In this document: in pieces, positions 1,952 through 24,502 of the stretch
How positions within the stretch are numbered: the stretch's first letter is position 1
Layout of the letters: the number at the start of each line of letters is the position of its first letter
Assembly: GCF_001913705.1 (NCBI RefSeq)
Contig: NZ_MKQD01000009.1
Span: forward strand, 1-45,143
Length of the DNA: 45,143 bases
Reading direction: 5' to 3'
DNA from: Thalassotalea sp. PP2-459
GTDB taxonomy: Bacteria > Pseudomonadota > Gammaproteobacteria > Enterobacterales > Alteromonadaceae
The notes under the pieces: generated by a model
The model's database searches: none
Told to the model about the DNA's origin: nothing
The model's input: the letters and a program-made list of their open reading frames with translations, nothing else
Made by a program: the position numbers and the translations under genes

Positions 1952-1969
1952 TTGTCATCTTTCGGTCAT
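1952..1969 (+). promoter_or_regulatory. Pho-box-like direct repeat between olsF and the PAP2 gene
   Basis: TTGTCAT and CGGTCAT, each 6/7 to CTGTCAT, are separated by exactly four bases (11-bp phase). They lie in the 60-base gap before the PAP2 gene. The expected -10 position (from 1980) reads TAAGGT, a poor -10 that also overlaps the likely ribosome binding site. The motif is well formed, but a working internal promoter is doubtful. Confidence 0.35.
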
Positions 1970-1993
1970 ATATTCACGATAAGGTAGAGCATT

Positions 1994-2509
1994 ATGACAG
2001 TACTTGAAGCGCTATATCAGGTAGATTTACGGGTACTTCTATGGTGCAGGAAATCGCGTTATTACCCGCAATTTATCGCCTTTGTTCGGAGCCTGTCAAA
2101 AACAGGTGATGGCTATATGCAAGGCTTATTTCCCTTGGTTTACTGGGGATATAACCCTGATTCCGGACAAACATTTCTTTTACTTGCATGCCTTACTTTT
2201 GCTTTTGAACGACCTATATATTTTTTACTAAAAAACATACTTAAAAGACGAAGACCACCAGAGGTGGTGCCTGACTTTTTTTCTCTGGTAAAAGCCGCGG
2301 ACCAATTTAGTTTTCCGTCTGGACACACTATGGCAGCCTTTGCGTTAGCAGGACTTGCAACTATTCACATTGGCAGTGCTGCTTTTCCACTTTATCTTTG
2401 GGCTACTTGCATTGGTATATCTCGTGTAGTGCTAGGAGTACACTTTCCTTCTGATATCATTGCTGGAGCATTACTTGGTAGCCTAATTGTGATAGGAGTT
2501 GTGCTTTAA
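1994..2509 (+). CDS. PAP2-family membrane phosphatase
   Basis: This 171-residue membrane protein carries all three phosphatidic acid phosphatase type 2 motifs: K80-X6-R87-P88, PSGH at 108-111 and SR143-X5-H150-X3-D154. The signature residues for acid phosphatase chemistry are therefore intact, with the active site expected on the periplasmic side. Family members dephosphorylate phosphatidic acid, phosphatidylglycerophosphate, undecaprenyl diphosphate or lipid A. Its stop overlaps the next gene's start by one base (TAATG), so the two are translationally coupled. Between an ornithine-lipid synthase and a glycosyltransferase, release of diacylglycerol as a glycolipid acceptor is a reasonable inference. 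Undecaprenyl-PP phosphatase remains an alternative. Confidence 0.85.
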   Translation: MTVLEALYQVDLRVLLWCRKSRYYPQFIAFVRSLSKTGDGYMQGLFPLVYWGYNPDSGQTFLLLACLTFAFERPIYFLLKNILKRRRPPEVVPDFFSLVKAADQFSFPSGHTMAAFALAGLATIHIGSAAFPLYLWATCIGISRVVLGVHFPSDIIAGALLGSLIVIGVVL

Positions 2510-3531
2510 TGAAAATCCTTTACGGTATTCAAGCGACAGGCAATGGCCATATTTCACGGTCTCGTGTGATGGCTAAGTACTTTAACGAACGTAATATAGA
2601 TGTGACGTATTTATTATCAGGGCGTGAGAAAGAAAAACTATTTGATATGGAAGTGTTTGGTGACTTTCTTTATCGGAGGGGCCTGACATTCGTTACCCAT
2701 CAAGGAAAAATAGATCATTGGCGAACGATAAAAACCAATAATATTATTGAATTTGTTAATGATATTCGCACACTTGATGTAAAGCAGTACGATTTAGTGA
2801 TCACTGATTTTGAACCTATCACCGCCTGGGCTGCTAAATTATCTGGTGTAAAATCATTAGCGATTGGCCATCAATATGCCTTTGGTGAAAACACTCCGAT
2901 TACGGGTGGTAATGTATTAGCAAGTGGTATTTTAAAGTACTTTGCACCAGCAAAACAGTCGATAGGGCTACATTGGGCTCGTTACAATAATAACGTATTG
3001 CCGCCTATTATTGATGTTAGGTTAACACGTTCGGCACAAAAAGGGCCGGTATTAGTGTATTTACCGTTTGAAGATCAACAAACGGTTCTGAAAATGTTAA
3101 ACAGCGTTACAGCGTACCAGTTCGTTCAATACTCTCAAGAGTTAACAGATGGTGAACAAGCAAATGTGCAAACGCGAACAACGAGTTATCAAGGGTTCAA
3201 AGAAGATTTAAAGCGTGCAAGTGCAGTCATTTGTAATAGCGGCTTTGAATTAAATAGCGAATGTATTCATTTAGGCATTCCTATTCTTACTAAACCCATC
3301 GCTGGACAAATGGAGCAAGAATCGAATGCGCTGGCATTAGAACAGCTTGGTTATGGTAAAGCGGTTAGTGCGCTTTCGAGTACAGTCGTTGAACAGTGGT
3401 TGGTGAATTTACCAACACAAACACGAACTATTTTTCCAGATGTTGCTCAATTAATTGTCAATTGGTTATCGCAAGACAATGCGAACCACACTATTGATGA
3501 CTTTACTGCTCAAGTATGGAAGCAGCATTAA
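2509..3531 (+). CDS. MJ1255/VC2487-family glycosyltransferase (GT-B, MurG-like)
   Basis: A 340-residue GT-B type glycosyltransferase. The N-terminus has the GxGH loop typical of MurG-like enzymes (QATGNGHISRSR), and the C-terminal half has the nucleotide-sugar-binding pattern with NSGFELNSE and the KPIAGQMEQ segment. It resembles the group named after MJ1255 and VC2487, whose substrate is not established to my knowledge. No signal peptide or clear membrane helix is seen, so it probably acts at the inner membrane surface. Coupling to the PAP2 gene suggests a lipid acceptor such as diacylglycerol, which would make it part of a phosphorus-free lipid pathway. That substrate is inference. Confidence 0.75.
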   Translation: MKILYGIQATGNGHISRSRVMAKYFNERNIDVTYLLSGREKEKLFDMEVFGDFLYRRGLTFVTHQGKIDHWRTIKTNNIIEFVNDIRTLDVKQYDLVITDFEPITAWAAKLSGVKSLAIGHQYAFGENTPITGGNVLASGILKYFAPAKQSIGLHWARYNNNVLPPIIDVRLTRSAQKGPVLVYLPFEDQQTVLKMLNSVTAYQFVQYSQELTDGEQANVQTRTTSYQGFKEDLKRASAVICNSGFELNSECIHLGIPILTKPIAGQMEQESNALALEQLGYGKAVSALSSTVVEQWLVNLPTQTRTIFPDVAQLIVNWLSQDNANHTIDDFTAQVWKQH

Positions 3532-21352: not shown

Positions 21353-21433
21353 GGCGTTACCGAGTAATTTAACTTTTGCAATGTCACAATATTAGGTACA
21401 GTAAGCCGATTATTGTTTAGATATTTTACAGTT

Positions 21434-22456
21434 ATGGGTCCAATCATGATGGACGTGCATGGCACGTCGTTAACAGAGCAAGACAAAGAGCTTGTTCAAC
21501 ACCCGCTTGTTGGTGGATTAATTCTCTTTTCTCGAAATTTTGAGTCTGTTCAACAAATACGTGAATTAATTTCTCACATCAGACATACAGCCAATAAACC
21601 TTTATTGATCGGTGTAGATCATGAAGGAGGGCGTGTGCAACGATTTAGAGAGGGGTTTTCACAAATTCCTGCCATGGGGCGCTTTATTGAACACGCGAAT
21701 AATAATATAGCACAAGCCCAGCAATATGCGGCCAACGCAGGTGCTTTAATGGCTATGGAAGTACAAGGTGTTGGTATTGATATCAGTTTTTCGCCTGTCC
21801 TAGATATTAACGGGGTGAGTGACGTTATTGGTCAGCGTGCCTTTTCACAAAACATTGAACAAATTGCACCGTTAGCTAAAGCTTTTATTCAGGGGATGAA
21901 GTCTGCTGGCATGAAATGTACGGCAAAGCATTTTCCAGGTCATGGAAGTGTAAAAGCAGATTCACATATTGCTATGCCGATTGATACGCGTTCGTTTGCC
22001 GATATCTCTCATCATGATTTACAGCCGTTTCGCCAGTTAATTAATGAGAACATGATAGATGCGGTAATGCCTGCACATGTTATTTTTCCAGATGTTGATG
22101 ATAAATCGGTGGGCTTTTCAACCAAATGGCTTAAGCAAGTATTACGTAAATCGTTAGGTTTTTATGGGGCCATATTCAGTGATGACCTGTCGATGCATGG
22201 TGCGTCTTCCATTGGTGGGTATATAGAACGAGCAGAAGCGGCACAAGAAGCCGGATGCGATATGCTGTTATTATGTAATAATCGAGAAGCATGTATTGAT
22301 GTGATTGATAATGCAAATATTTCGATTCACCAAGAAAGTAAATTGCGATTAAGTGCAATGCTAGCAACAAAGCCAATGAATTGGCAACAAATGCAAGCAA
22401 GCCAAGTGTGGCAACAGTTAACCCAATGGAATAACCTATTTCTAGAAAATACCTAA
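21434..22456 (+). CDS. nagZ: beta-N-acetylhexosaminidase NagZ
   Basis: Start set at ATG 21434 (MGPIMMDVHGTSL), which matches the NagZ N-terminus; an in-frame TTG seven codons earlier is less likely. The 340-residue glycoside hydrolase family 3 enzyme has GVDHEGGRVQRF, the loop KHFPGHG with its catalytic His, and the nucleophile Asp in FSDDLSMHG. It removes GlcNAc from GlcNAc-anhydromuropeptides in cytoplasmic peptidoglycan recycling, which also generates the signal for AmpC induction where AmpR exists. It follows psrA. Confidence 0.93.
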   Translation: MGPIMMDVHGTSLTEQDKELVQHPLVGGLILFSRNFESVQQIRELISHIRHTANKPLLIGVDHEGGRVQRFREGFSQIPAMGRFIEHANNNIAQAQQYAANAGALMAMEVQGVGIDISFSPVLDINGVSDVIGQRAFSQNIEQIAPLAKAFIQGMKSAGMKCTAKHFPGHGSVKADSHIAMPIDTRSFADISHHDLQPFRQLINENMIDAVMPAHVIFPDVDDKSVGFSTKWLKQVLRKSLGFYGAIFSDDLSMHGASSIGGYIERAEAAQEAGCDMLLLCNNREACIDVIDNANISIHQESKLRLSAMLATKPMNWQQMQASQVWQQLTQWNNLFLENT

Positions 22457-22462
22457 GTTTCT

Positions 22463-22560
22463 AAAAAAAAGCCTTGGCTAATAGCCAAGGCAGGAACAAT
22501 GCAAACTAACGTGTTTGTTTACTAGAGAGAGCACTTAACAGCGAGCGTCGCTGATTAAGT
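22463..22560 (-). ncRNA. candidate Pho-regulated small RNA, ~98 nt
   Basis: Read on the minus strand from about 22560: a 5' stem-loop (CTTAA-TCAGCGA arm, 22559-22548, with 22544-22534, one bulge), a mostly single-stranded middle with the pyrimidine-rich UGCUCUCUCUAG, then a perfect 9-bp terminator hairpin GCCTTGGCT/AGCCAAGGC (22491-22483 with 22479-22471) and U8 (22470-22463). No minus-strand protein gene is present, and a promoter with Pho box ends about seven bases upstream of the proposed start. This is the layout of Hfq-dependent base-pairing RNAs; CUCUCU could pair with ribosome binding sites. Function and expression are inferred. Confidence 0.55.
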
Positions 22561-22566
22561 AACGCT

Positions 22567-22600
22567 ATATTATCGTGAGTTTATGACAGAAAAATGACGA
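22567..22600 (-). promoter_or_regulatory. Pho box and -10 for the small RNA candidate
   Basis: On the minus strand TCGTCAT (22600-22594) and CTGTCAT (22589-22583, perfect 7/7) are separated by exactly four bases. Ten bases on is TAATAT (22572-22567), a good -10 (4/6) at the spacing known for PhoB-activated promoters. This is the best Pho-box match I found in the window. Confidence 0.6.
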
Positions 22601-22654: not shown

Positions 22655-24502
22655 GTGGCTGAGAAGAAATTACAACATTTTTATATTGCTGAAGAACAGT
22701 CAATCTACTTACTTAGCCATAAAGACGCGACCAAGCTAAAACAGTGGGTCGAACTTTGTGAGCGGCAACTTTTATTGTTGGGCTATGAAGATATTGAGTT
22801 AATTGGTAAAGGCGCTTATGGCTTTGTATTTGGTGGTAGAAATGAAGCAGGCGTTGAACAAGTTTTTAAATTTTCTCGGATTAATCTTCCGCAACATGTA
22901 CAAGACAGGCTAGCCGAGGAAGCTGAAATACAGCGTGAATTGACACACGAGCGTATTCCTCAAATAATTGAGTATTATAAAATTAAGCGGCAATCTATTG
23001 TGCATATGGAACGGGCTCCAGGCATTGATTTAGAACGTTTTTCGCATCAAGTTGGGCCGTTAGCGCCTGAATTAATTGTTAATATCGCATTGCAATTGGC
23101 AGATATTTTATTGTATTTACGAACCGTAAAATACCATAGTAAGGGGAAGCCGTACGTTCATGGGGATATTAAACCGTCTAACCTTGTGTACCATCAAGAA
23201 AAGAACAAATTATACTTGGTAGACTGGGGTTCTGCAGTCTCTGCTCAACTTGATATTAACGGCCAAACCACCGCAAATAATATCATGGATCTAATGAGTA
23301 GTGATTTGCAAAATTCTAATGCTCGGCTTGGTGATGTCTATTTTATCGGTCCGGAGCAAATTAATGGTGAAATGTCTTCTCCACGCTTTGATGAACAGGG
23401 CATGGCAGCAACATTATACGCGCTAGCATCTGGTCAATCATGTCGTTATGGGCATGAAGTGATAAAGCCAACTTCTCTTGGTTTACCAAAAATGTTGGCG
23501 AACGTGATTGAAGCGATGTTAAGCGATGATAGAAAAACACGTGAGCAAGCCGGAGATTACTTTTTTAAACATCTGTCATTATTACGCAATACTGTGTTAG
23601 CCGAAACCCCAACTTGGCCAGAGATAAGGCCACTTATTCCGGTGTGGTGCAAACCCCGCACACGAGAAATTGATACCGTAGTTTATGGATCTCGTAAATC
23701 ATTTTTACGTGAAGAAAGCGATGAAGCGTCTTTAGCAAATATCAATGATGCGCAGTTAGAAAAATATTATAAAAATTATTTAATGGGCATGGGCGATACC
23801 GAAAAAGCGTTTATTGCTGCGGTGAGCCGCTTAGGTAACTTTCCAGTGGTGGGTGGATTAGCGATCCGCTGGGAAAAAGAAGGGGTTTATATTGATTCAA
23901 ATTTAACGTTGTTTGATCAAGCGTTAAAAACATCGTTCCAAAGTGCAGTGAATAATATGATTTATTTAGCGCAAGGCATCTTTCGTACTGGTGTATTTAA
24001 AAGTTGTTTGTTCAATGCTCGTAATACCTTACATGTTGAACGGGATACTGTTGAACAGCCTTTTATTGCACAACCAGAGCAAGTGATACCGTTTGATATT
24101 AGTGATGTTCCTGATCAAGATGATGAATCAAAACTGCATTCGTATTTTGAAGACGGTAAAGATCCAGATGAATATCTATATTTGCCCGACGAAATGATGG
24201 AAGTCTTGTCGCAATTGAACTTAATTCACCATACGGGGTGTATTATTTTTGAAGTACTTGAAACACATTTAAAAATTCATAGCTATTTAATGTTATTAAA
24301 TCATGAGCAAGAAGCAGAATTTTCAAGTTTATTAGCTAAACTTTTGGTATTACTTCCTACAATAACGGGACTGGGAATTTCTGGTTTTATGAAACTTCCT
24401 TATAAAGACACACGGTTTTTTGAGCATATTAATCGGTTGCCGGAGAAATATTATCCGATAAACCCTAAATCACGTGAACAGCAAATAACAGAAGGTAAAT
24501 AA
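22655..24502 (+). CDS. protein kinase-like protein with unknown C-terminal region
   Basis: A 615-residue protein from GTG 22655. Residues about 45-310 are an eukaryotic-like kinase domain: glycine loop GKGAYGFVFGG (51-61), a lysine at 72 in VFKFSR, catalytic HGDIKPSN (169-176) and DWG (190-192) in place of DFG. Catalytic Asp, Lys and Asn are therefore present, with Trp substituted in the magnesium loop. No signal peptide or membrane segment is seen. Residues 340-615 match nothing I recognise. The VOC gene follows after one base. Substrates are unknown. Confidence 0.8.
   Translation: MAEKKLQHFYIAEEQSIYLLSHKDATKLKQWVELCERQLLLLGYEDIELIGKGAYGFVFGGRNEAGVEQVFKFSRINLPQHVQDRLAEEAEIQRELTHERIPQIIEYYKIKRQSIVHMERAPGIDLERFSHQVGPLAPELIVNIALQLADILLYLRTVKYHSKGKPYVHGDIKPSNLVYHQEKNKLYLVDWGSAVSAQLDINGQTTANNIMDLMSSDLQNSNARLGDVYFIGPEQINGEMSSPRFDEQGMAATLYALASGQSCRYGHEVIKPTSLGLPKMLANVIEAMLSDDRKTREQAGDYFFKHLSLLRNTVLAETPTWPEIRPLIPVWCKPRTREIDTVVYGSRKSFLREESDEASLANINDAQLEKYYKNYLMGMGDTEKAFIAAVSRLGNFPVVGGLAIRWEKEGVYIDSNLTLFDQALKTSFQSAVNNMIYLAQGIFRTGVFKSCLFNARNTLHVERDTVEQPFIAQPEQVIPFDISDVPDQDDESKLHSYFEDGKDPDEYLYLPDEMMEVLSQLNLIHHTGCIIFEVLETHLKIHSYLMLLNHEQEAEFSSLLAKLLVLLPTITGLGISGFMKLPYKDTRFFEHINRLPEKYYPINPKSREQQITEGK

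Follow-up and report, generated by a model that had tools for sequence, protein, structure and literature searches.

A candidate PhoB-activated small RNA gene divergent from a kinase gene in Thalassotalea and related genera

Results

A stand-alone unit between nagZ and a kinase gene

The window analyzed here, a 45,143-nucleotide stretch of contig NZ_MKQD01000009.1 from Thalassotalea sp. PP2-459, carries on its plus strand nagZ, which encodes a beta-N-acetylhexosaminidase (21431-22456), and a gene for a Ser/Thr kinase with a Pkinase domain (22655-24502). On the minus strand, an intergenic, stand-alone unit reaching from a Pho box to a terminator occupies 22463-22600, with nagZ as its convergent and the kinase gene as its divergent neighbor. 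A sequence-only reading of this DNA had placed the unit opposite the 3' side of nagZ. With the nagZ stop at 22456 and the kinase start at 22655, the unit does adjoin nagZ, lying 3' of it and between the two genes, and does not overlap it. The kinase domain lies in the first part of the protein (615 aa); Pfam gave no match for the C-terminal half, and NCBIfam gave matches below its cut-offs only.

The unit opens with a Pho box of the E. coli type (7-N4-7), TCGTCAT-TTTT-CTGTCAT, with half-sites at 22600-22594 and 22589-22583 on the minus strand, the second being a perfect CTGTCAT. Ten bases past the box lies the -10 hexamer TAATAT (22572-22567), from the position of which we infer a transcription start near 22560. 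The small RNA (sRNA) gene itself, delimited by this start, by covariance-model matches and by its fold, would thus span about 98 nt (22463-22560). Its 5' hairpin (22533-22560) pairs ACUUAA (22560-22555) with UUAAGU (22538-22533) around an inner CAGCGA/UCGCUG helix. It is followed by CUCUCUCUAG (22522-22531), the proposed seed, which is unpaired in the minimum-energy fold and has a CUCUAG core that is invariant in the alignment described below. One further stretch of RNA separates this element from an intrinsic terminator (22463-22491) with a 9-bp stem (22491-22471, six G-C pairs), a 3-nt loop and U8, called by the terminator scan on the minus strand only. The U8 tail is compatible with putative binding of Hfq or ProQ. 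Each of these parts, from the Pho box with its perfect second half and the -10 exactly ten bases on to the 5' stem-loop, the single-stranded stretch and the GC-rich terminator with U8, had been named in the sequence-only reading and was found again here.

That reading had also held that no protein gene uses the terminator, and the ORF list indeed contains no minus-strand ORF of at least 60 aa that ends there or lies inside the RNA. Length differences of 2 nt beside the seed between species argue against a conserved short peptide in the RNA. Folding of 105 nt gave -34 kcal/mol (z = -4.4), a value equaled by one out of 200 shuffles. The T. marina copy folds more weakly (z = -1.8), with 12 out of 200 shuffles equally good.

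Promoter geometry matches that of phoB

We scored promoters with a composite, CTGTCAT-N4-CTGTCAT-N10-TANNNT, with a maximum of 17. The unit reached 15, and 200 dinucleotide-shuffled versions of the 300-bp region scored 13 at best. Across both strands of the 45-kb window, just one other site scored 15. This second site (1952-1985, plus strand) lies immediately 5' of two genes (1994-2509 and 2509-3531) for a PAP2-superfamily phosphatase and a family-1 glycosyltransferase, a pair that looks like a phosphate-starvation lipid-remodeling operon and consists of gene types expected under phosphate control.

Strict Pho-box spacing is reported for PhoB promoters in PMC10294691. When spacing was left free, the N10 distance to the -10 was best in 10 out of 10 copies of the unit and the N4 gap between half-sites in nine out of 10, the exception being genome G066 (12 at N5 versus 11 at N4). 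The TA...T of the -10 is retained in all eight aligned copies. The regulator itself is present, as the PhoB equivalog model TIGR02154 scored above its cut-off in 13 out of 13 genomes examined. The phoB promoters served as an internal control showing the form that the Pho box takes in these bacteria: the best composite upstream of phoB was 12-15 in all 13 genomes and at least 13 in 11 of them (0.08 expected from shuffles), and N4 was the best half-site gap in 13 out of 13 when the gap was varied. The -10 of these promoters is usually CACAAT. Taken together, the sequence evidence makes it very probable that PhoB switches the RNA gene on.

Copies of the RNA in related genera

A DNA search recovered the unit in its own species and, at 90% and 72% identity respectively, in G001 and G003. 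The T. marina copy was missed by this search and located through synteny, between a DASS-family symporter gene and the kinase gene. In T. eurytherma (locus L011), the site past the symporter gene holds, as judged by eye, a dsbB-like gene, and the unit was not found there. Within the genus, the RNA was found in five out of five genomes.

From the four transcripts (own, G001, G003 and T. marina), excluding upstream DNA, we built a covariance model, R1, which gave 18 matches in 17 out of 395 family genomes at E-values up to 0.05. We accepted nine of these, in nine genomes and four genera: the four model sequences, a second genome of the own species (G059), and G105, G066, G068 and G126, which belong to three other genera. 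The E-values of the latter four (2.9e-5 to 0.034) are interleaved with those of rejected matches, so the R1 score alone was insufficient, and they were settled as copies because of the upstream Pho/-10 composite. All nine accepted matches scored 13-15 out of 17, with the -10 ending at most two bases from the model start. The nine rejected matches scored 6-9.

A second model, R2, built from eight sequences, matched 46 places in 38 out of 395 genomes. These comprised the nine copies already accepted, 21 new loci (L061-L081) and 16 places without a new locus; one of these 16, L057 in G068, was judged by eye. Twenty of the 21 new loci were checkable (L061 was too short), and a Pho box was present in one (L080, in G102). 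The G102 RNA lacks CUCUAG, the core of the proposed seed, but has a Pho box (score 14) and kinase synteny, and R2 thereby added it to the set. Six loci (L055-L060) were rejected as copies by eye. In genus g25, just one out of six genomes has an accepted copy. A pattern search returned 11 matches, eight of them known copies, and its reversed control two; the other three, in G098, G381 and G361, appeared unrelated.

The weak model matches also included small, terminator-ended units in genus g76 that carry GTTTTCCTCCCTGAAATG or a near copy of it (L065 1501-1610; L072, minus strand; L062, L064 and L076), at up to three places per genome. Their Rfam matches stay below the gathering scores (suhB/mmgR, 34.4 bits against 41; anti-hemB, 34.4 bits against 49.5). 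These units possibly form a separate anti-Shine-Dalgarno sRNA family.

Covariation of the two hairpins

In the alignment of eight sequences, changes on both sides were seen in seven out of 16 pairs, compared to 2.5 in shuffles, on a structure that was drawn from the same eight sequences, which favors that structure. Paired cells amounted to 95.2%, compared to 88.6% in shuffles and 20-53% with the partner slid. Further pair types showed no excess (10 versus 9.5 in shuffles). Covariation is clear in the terminator stem, where five out of eight modeled pairs changed on both sides, and modest in the 5' hairpin, where two out of eight pairs did so, in one sequence each, and 93.5% of cells were paired.

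The kinase gene as constant neighbor

We read the neighborhoods of nine copies (own genome, G001, G003, T. marina, G105, G066, G068, G126 and G102, with G059 outside this set). The kinase gene is the divergent neighbor in all nine. The convergent neighbor varies, being nagZ, a DASS-family symporter gene or, as recognized by eye, adk or a gene for 2-oxoacid dehydrogenase E2. This variation bears on the idea that the unit acts on the convergent gene, that is, nagZ here and the symporter gene in relatives, as a cis-antisense or transcription-interference element. The terminator abuts or overlaps the symporter stop codon in G105, G066 and T. marina, as such an element might; the RNA nonetheless persists while the convergent gene differs between genomes, and we regard this explanation as very improbable.

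As the kinase gene is the constant divergent neighbor, we searched relatives for the kinase. Of 59 genomes, 34 encode a relative of the first 230 residues of the protein; the search yielded 30 loci, all of which were read (L082-L111). Eight of them have a Pho/-10 composite that scores 13 or more in the divergent orientation: four within the own genus, and G010, G032, G015 and G029, which represent four further genera. The RNA bodies of these last four are too diverged for the models to recognize, yet each unit ends in a terminator and contains a pyrimidine-rich stretch (CCUCCCC, CUCUCCC, CCCUCC or CCUCCUC). No composite of at least 13 was found in the other 22 of the 30 kinase loci, which makes the distribution of the unit in the family patchy. 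In G006 (L088), a composite of 12 out of 17 followed by a terminator stands divergent from the kinase gene and may be a further degenerate copy.

Across 35 regions, namely the 30 kinase loci and five added as model matches (two of which had been cut too short and scored 15 and 14 once recut), 11 had a composite of at least 13, compared to 0.22 expected from shuffles, and none did on the opposite strand. A merely fortuitous pairing of promoter-like and terminator-like sequence is conceivable in principle, Pho boxes being short and terminators common, but is contradicted by conservation across genera at fixed spacing, by covariation and by synteny, and hardly merits credence.

A related possibility is that the Pho box serves the kinase gene and that the minus-strand terminator is incidental. 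The box is indeed intergenic beside the kinase gene in all nine copies read, and no other neighbor is constant. However, the direct repeats and the -10 point toward the RNA, the opposite strand reached a score of 12 in none of the 35 regions, and 22 of the 30 kinase loci stay below a composite of 13. Control of the kinase would also leave the paired 5' hairpin and the CUCUAG element (invariant in eight copies) unexplained, which makes this reading improbable. An sRNA gene under PhoB control, as the sequence-only reading had proposed, is instead supported by the cross-genus Pho box, the hairpins and the kinase synteny. A failure of related genomes to share the Pho box and the hairpins would have counted against that proposal; fixed spacing, both hairpins and the kinase-side position are kept across genera.

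A pyrimidine-rich seed and its possible targets

Outside the stems, conservation among the eight copies is highest in the CU-rich stretch past the hairpin, whose CUCUAG core is invariant in eight out of eight. A CU-rich seed is complementary to purine-rich ribosome-binding sites, and translation repression is our best guess at its function. To look for targets, we counted CTAGAGRG-N0-14-ATG sites in three genomes, obtaining 13, 19 and 14 (46 in total). The reversed pattern gave 11, 9 and 12 (32); start sites complementary to the seed show no clear enrichment. Forty-five of the 46 sites were fetched, two overlapping ones in G002 being counted once, and among these an exbD/tolR-like gene was the one gene common to the three genomes. 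We discarded a second shared pair (G002 and G003), which looked like a match inside a coding sequence.

The exbD/tolR-like gene scores below the NCBIfam cut-offs and is followed by a proline-rich frame that appeared TonB-like by eye. Twelve out of 13 genomes have an ortholog, and G102 has only a 55% relative. The leader joins the stop TAG to AGAGAG and is conserved in 12 out of 12, including four genomes whose RNA lacks CUCUAG; it is conserved even without the seed because stop codon and ribosome-binding site coincide. Eleven consecutive bases of the site can pair with the RNA of the own species. Duplex energies were better than those of mononucleotide shuffles at the 5% level in the two closest species only (0.020 and 0.043), with 0.063-0.347 in six other seed-bearing species and 0.633-0.880 in the four with diverged units. 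We regard this gene as a lead only.

Weak target prediction would fit an RNA that binds or titrates a protein, as a sponge does, instead of acting by antisense pairing, and the conservation of GCUCGCUG and the hairpin within the genus would suit such a role as well. Csr-type RNAs carry GGA loops as a repeated protein-binding motif; by eye, we noticed no repeated motif of this or a similar kind. Moreover, among unpaired elements in the eight copies, conservation is highest in a single stretch rich in C and U, as is typical of antisense seeds. We therefore consider a sponge unlikely and a base-pairing repressor the most likely role of the RNA. The anti-ribosome-binding-site seed suggested by the sequence-only reading fared unevenly: the invariance of CUCUAG among the eight aligned sequences speaks for it, its absence in G102 and the weak target lead do not, and the mechanism is plausible but unproven.

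Discussion

Promoter geometry, hairpins, terminator, covariation, kinase synteny and the presence of PhoB, all read from sequence, support one explanation with high probability: the unit is an intergenic, PhoB-activated gene for an sRNA of about 98 nt, whose seed likely pairs with ribosome-binding sites and lowers translation. Upon phosphate starvation, phospho-PhoB would bind the Pho box, standing in for a -35 element, a role that the Pho box is reported to take over (PMC3616915). RNA polymerase would then produce a transcript of about 98 nt up to the intrinsic terminator, as anatomy and conservation suggest. The 5' hairpin would protect the RNA and present the unpaired (A/C)UCUCUAG, which most likely pairs with a set of mRNAs at their purine-rich ribosome-binding sites, resulting in less translation.

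In the whole window, no Rfam family was matched at its gathering score. In ten loci with homologs or diverged units, no match was found up to E = 0.05, and the five matches of the same scan all lay in two other loci. We recognized no description of the RNA in the open-licence papers searched, and it is filed as a new family of a known sRNA kind, unmatched in Rfam. The best Rfam matches, PrrF (RF00444; 23.8 bits against a gathering score of 90) and Spot 42 (RF00021; 19.8 bits against 80), were rejected as identities. As we read them, these alignments rest mostly on the terminator. Both RNAs resemble the one described here in having 5' structure, an unpaired middle and a terminator. They differ in their control, since Fur regulates PrrF and CRP regulates Spot 42, in contrast to the Pho box found here.

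To our knowledge, few sRNAs have been shown to be driven directly by PhoB. Two systems can be likened to ours by description rather than by sequence. EsrL of pathogenic E. coli is a reported phosphate-induced sRNA with PhoB bound upstream; PhoB binding upstream of esrL was not detected in K-12 (PMC10294691), whereas the Pho box described here is conserved across genera. An unnamed PhoB-induced sRNA of E. coli, attributed to Ruiz and Silhavy 2003 in a passage of PMC8829014, likewise acts post-transcriptionally upon PhoB activation, but raises rpoS translation, in contrast to the repression proposed here. Haloferax sRNA132, as outlined in PMC6560208, shares the link to phosphate starvation; unlike our RNA, it is archaeal and tied to a phosphate ABC-transporter operon. 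The reverse direction is represented by LasR-controlled sRNAs that act on phoB (PMC12506140). In some bacteria, phosphate limitation shifts the levels of many sRNAs; 45 sRNAs were altered in a nitrogen and phosphate study of S. meliloti (PMC8829014).

More tentatively, the diverged units suggest a PhoB-driven riboregulator family at one address divergent from the kinase gene. Eight genera or more would retain the promoter and terminator, with the RNA body rewritten and the pyrimidine-rich seed changed along with it (CUCUAG in four genera, CCUCC- or CUCCC-like in others), each lineage possibly retuning the mRNAs that it silences under phosphate shortage.

The proposed outcome is that a post-transcriptional repression arm is added to the phosphate-starvation response. 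The RNA, its seed and its promoter are defined objects for direct testing. If the explanation holds true, these marine gammaproteobacteria would gain such an arm of the Pho regulon.
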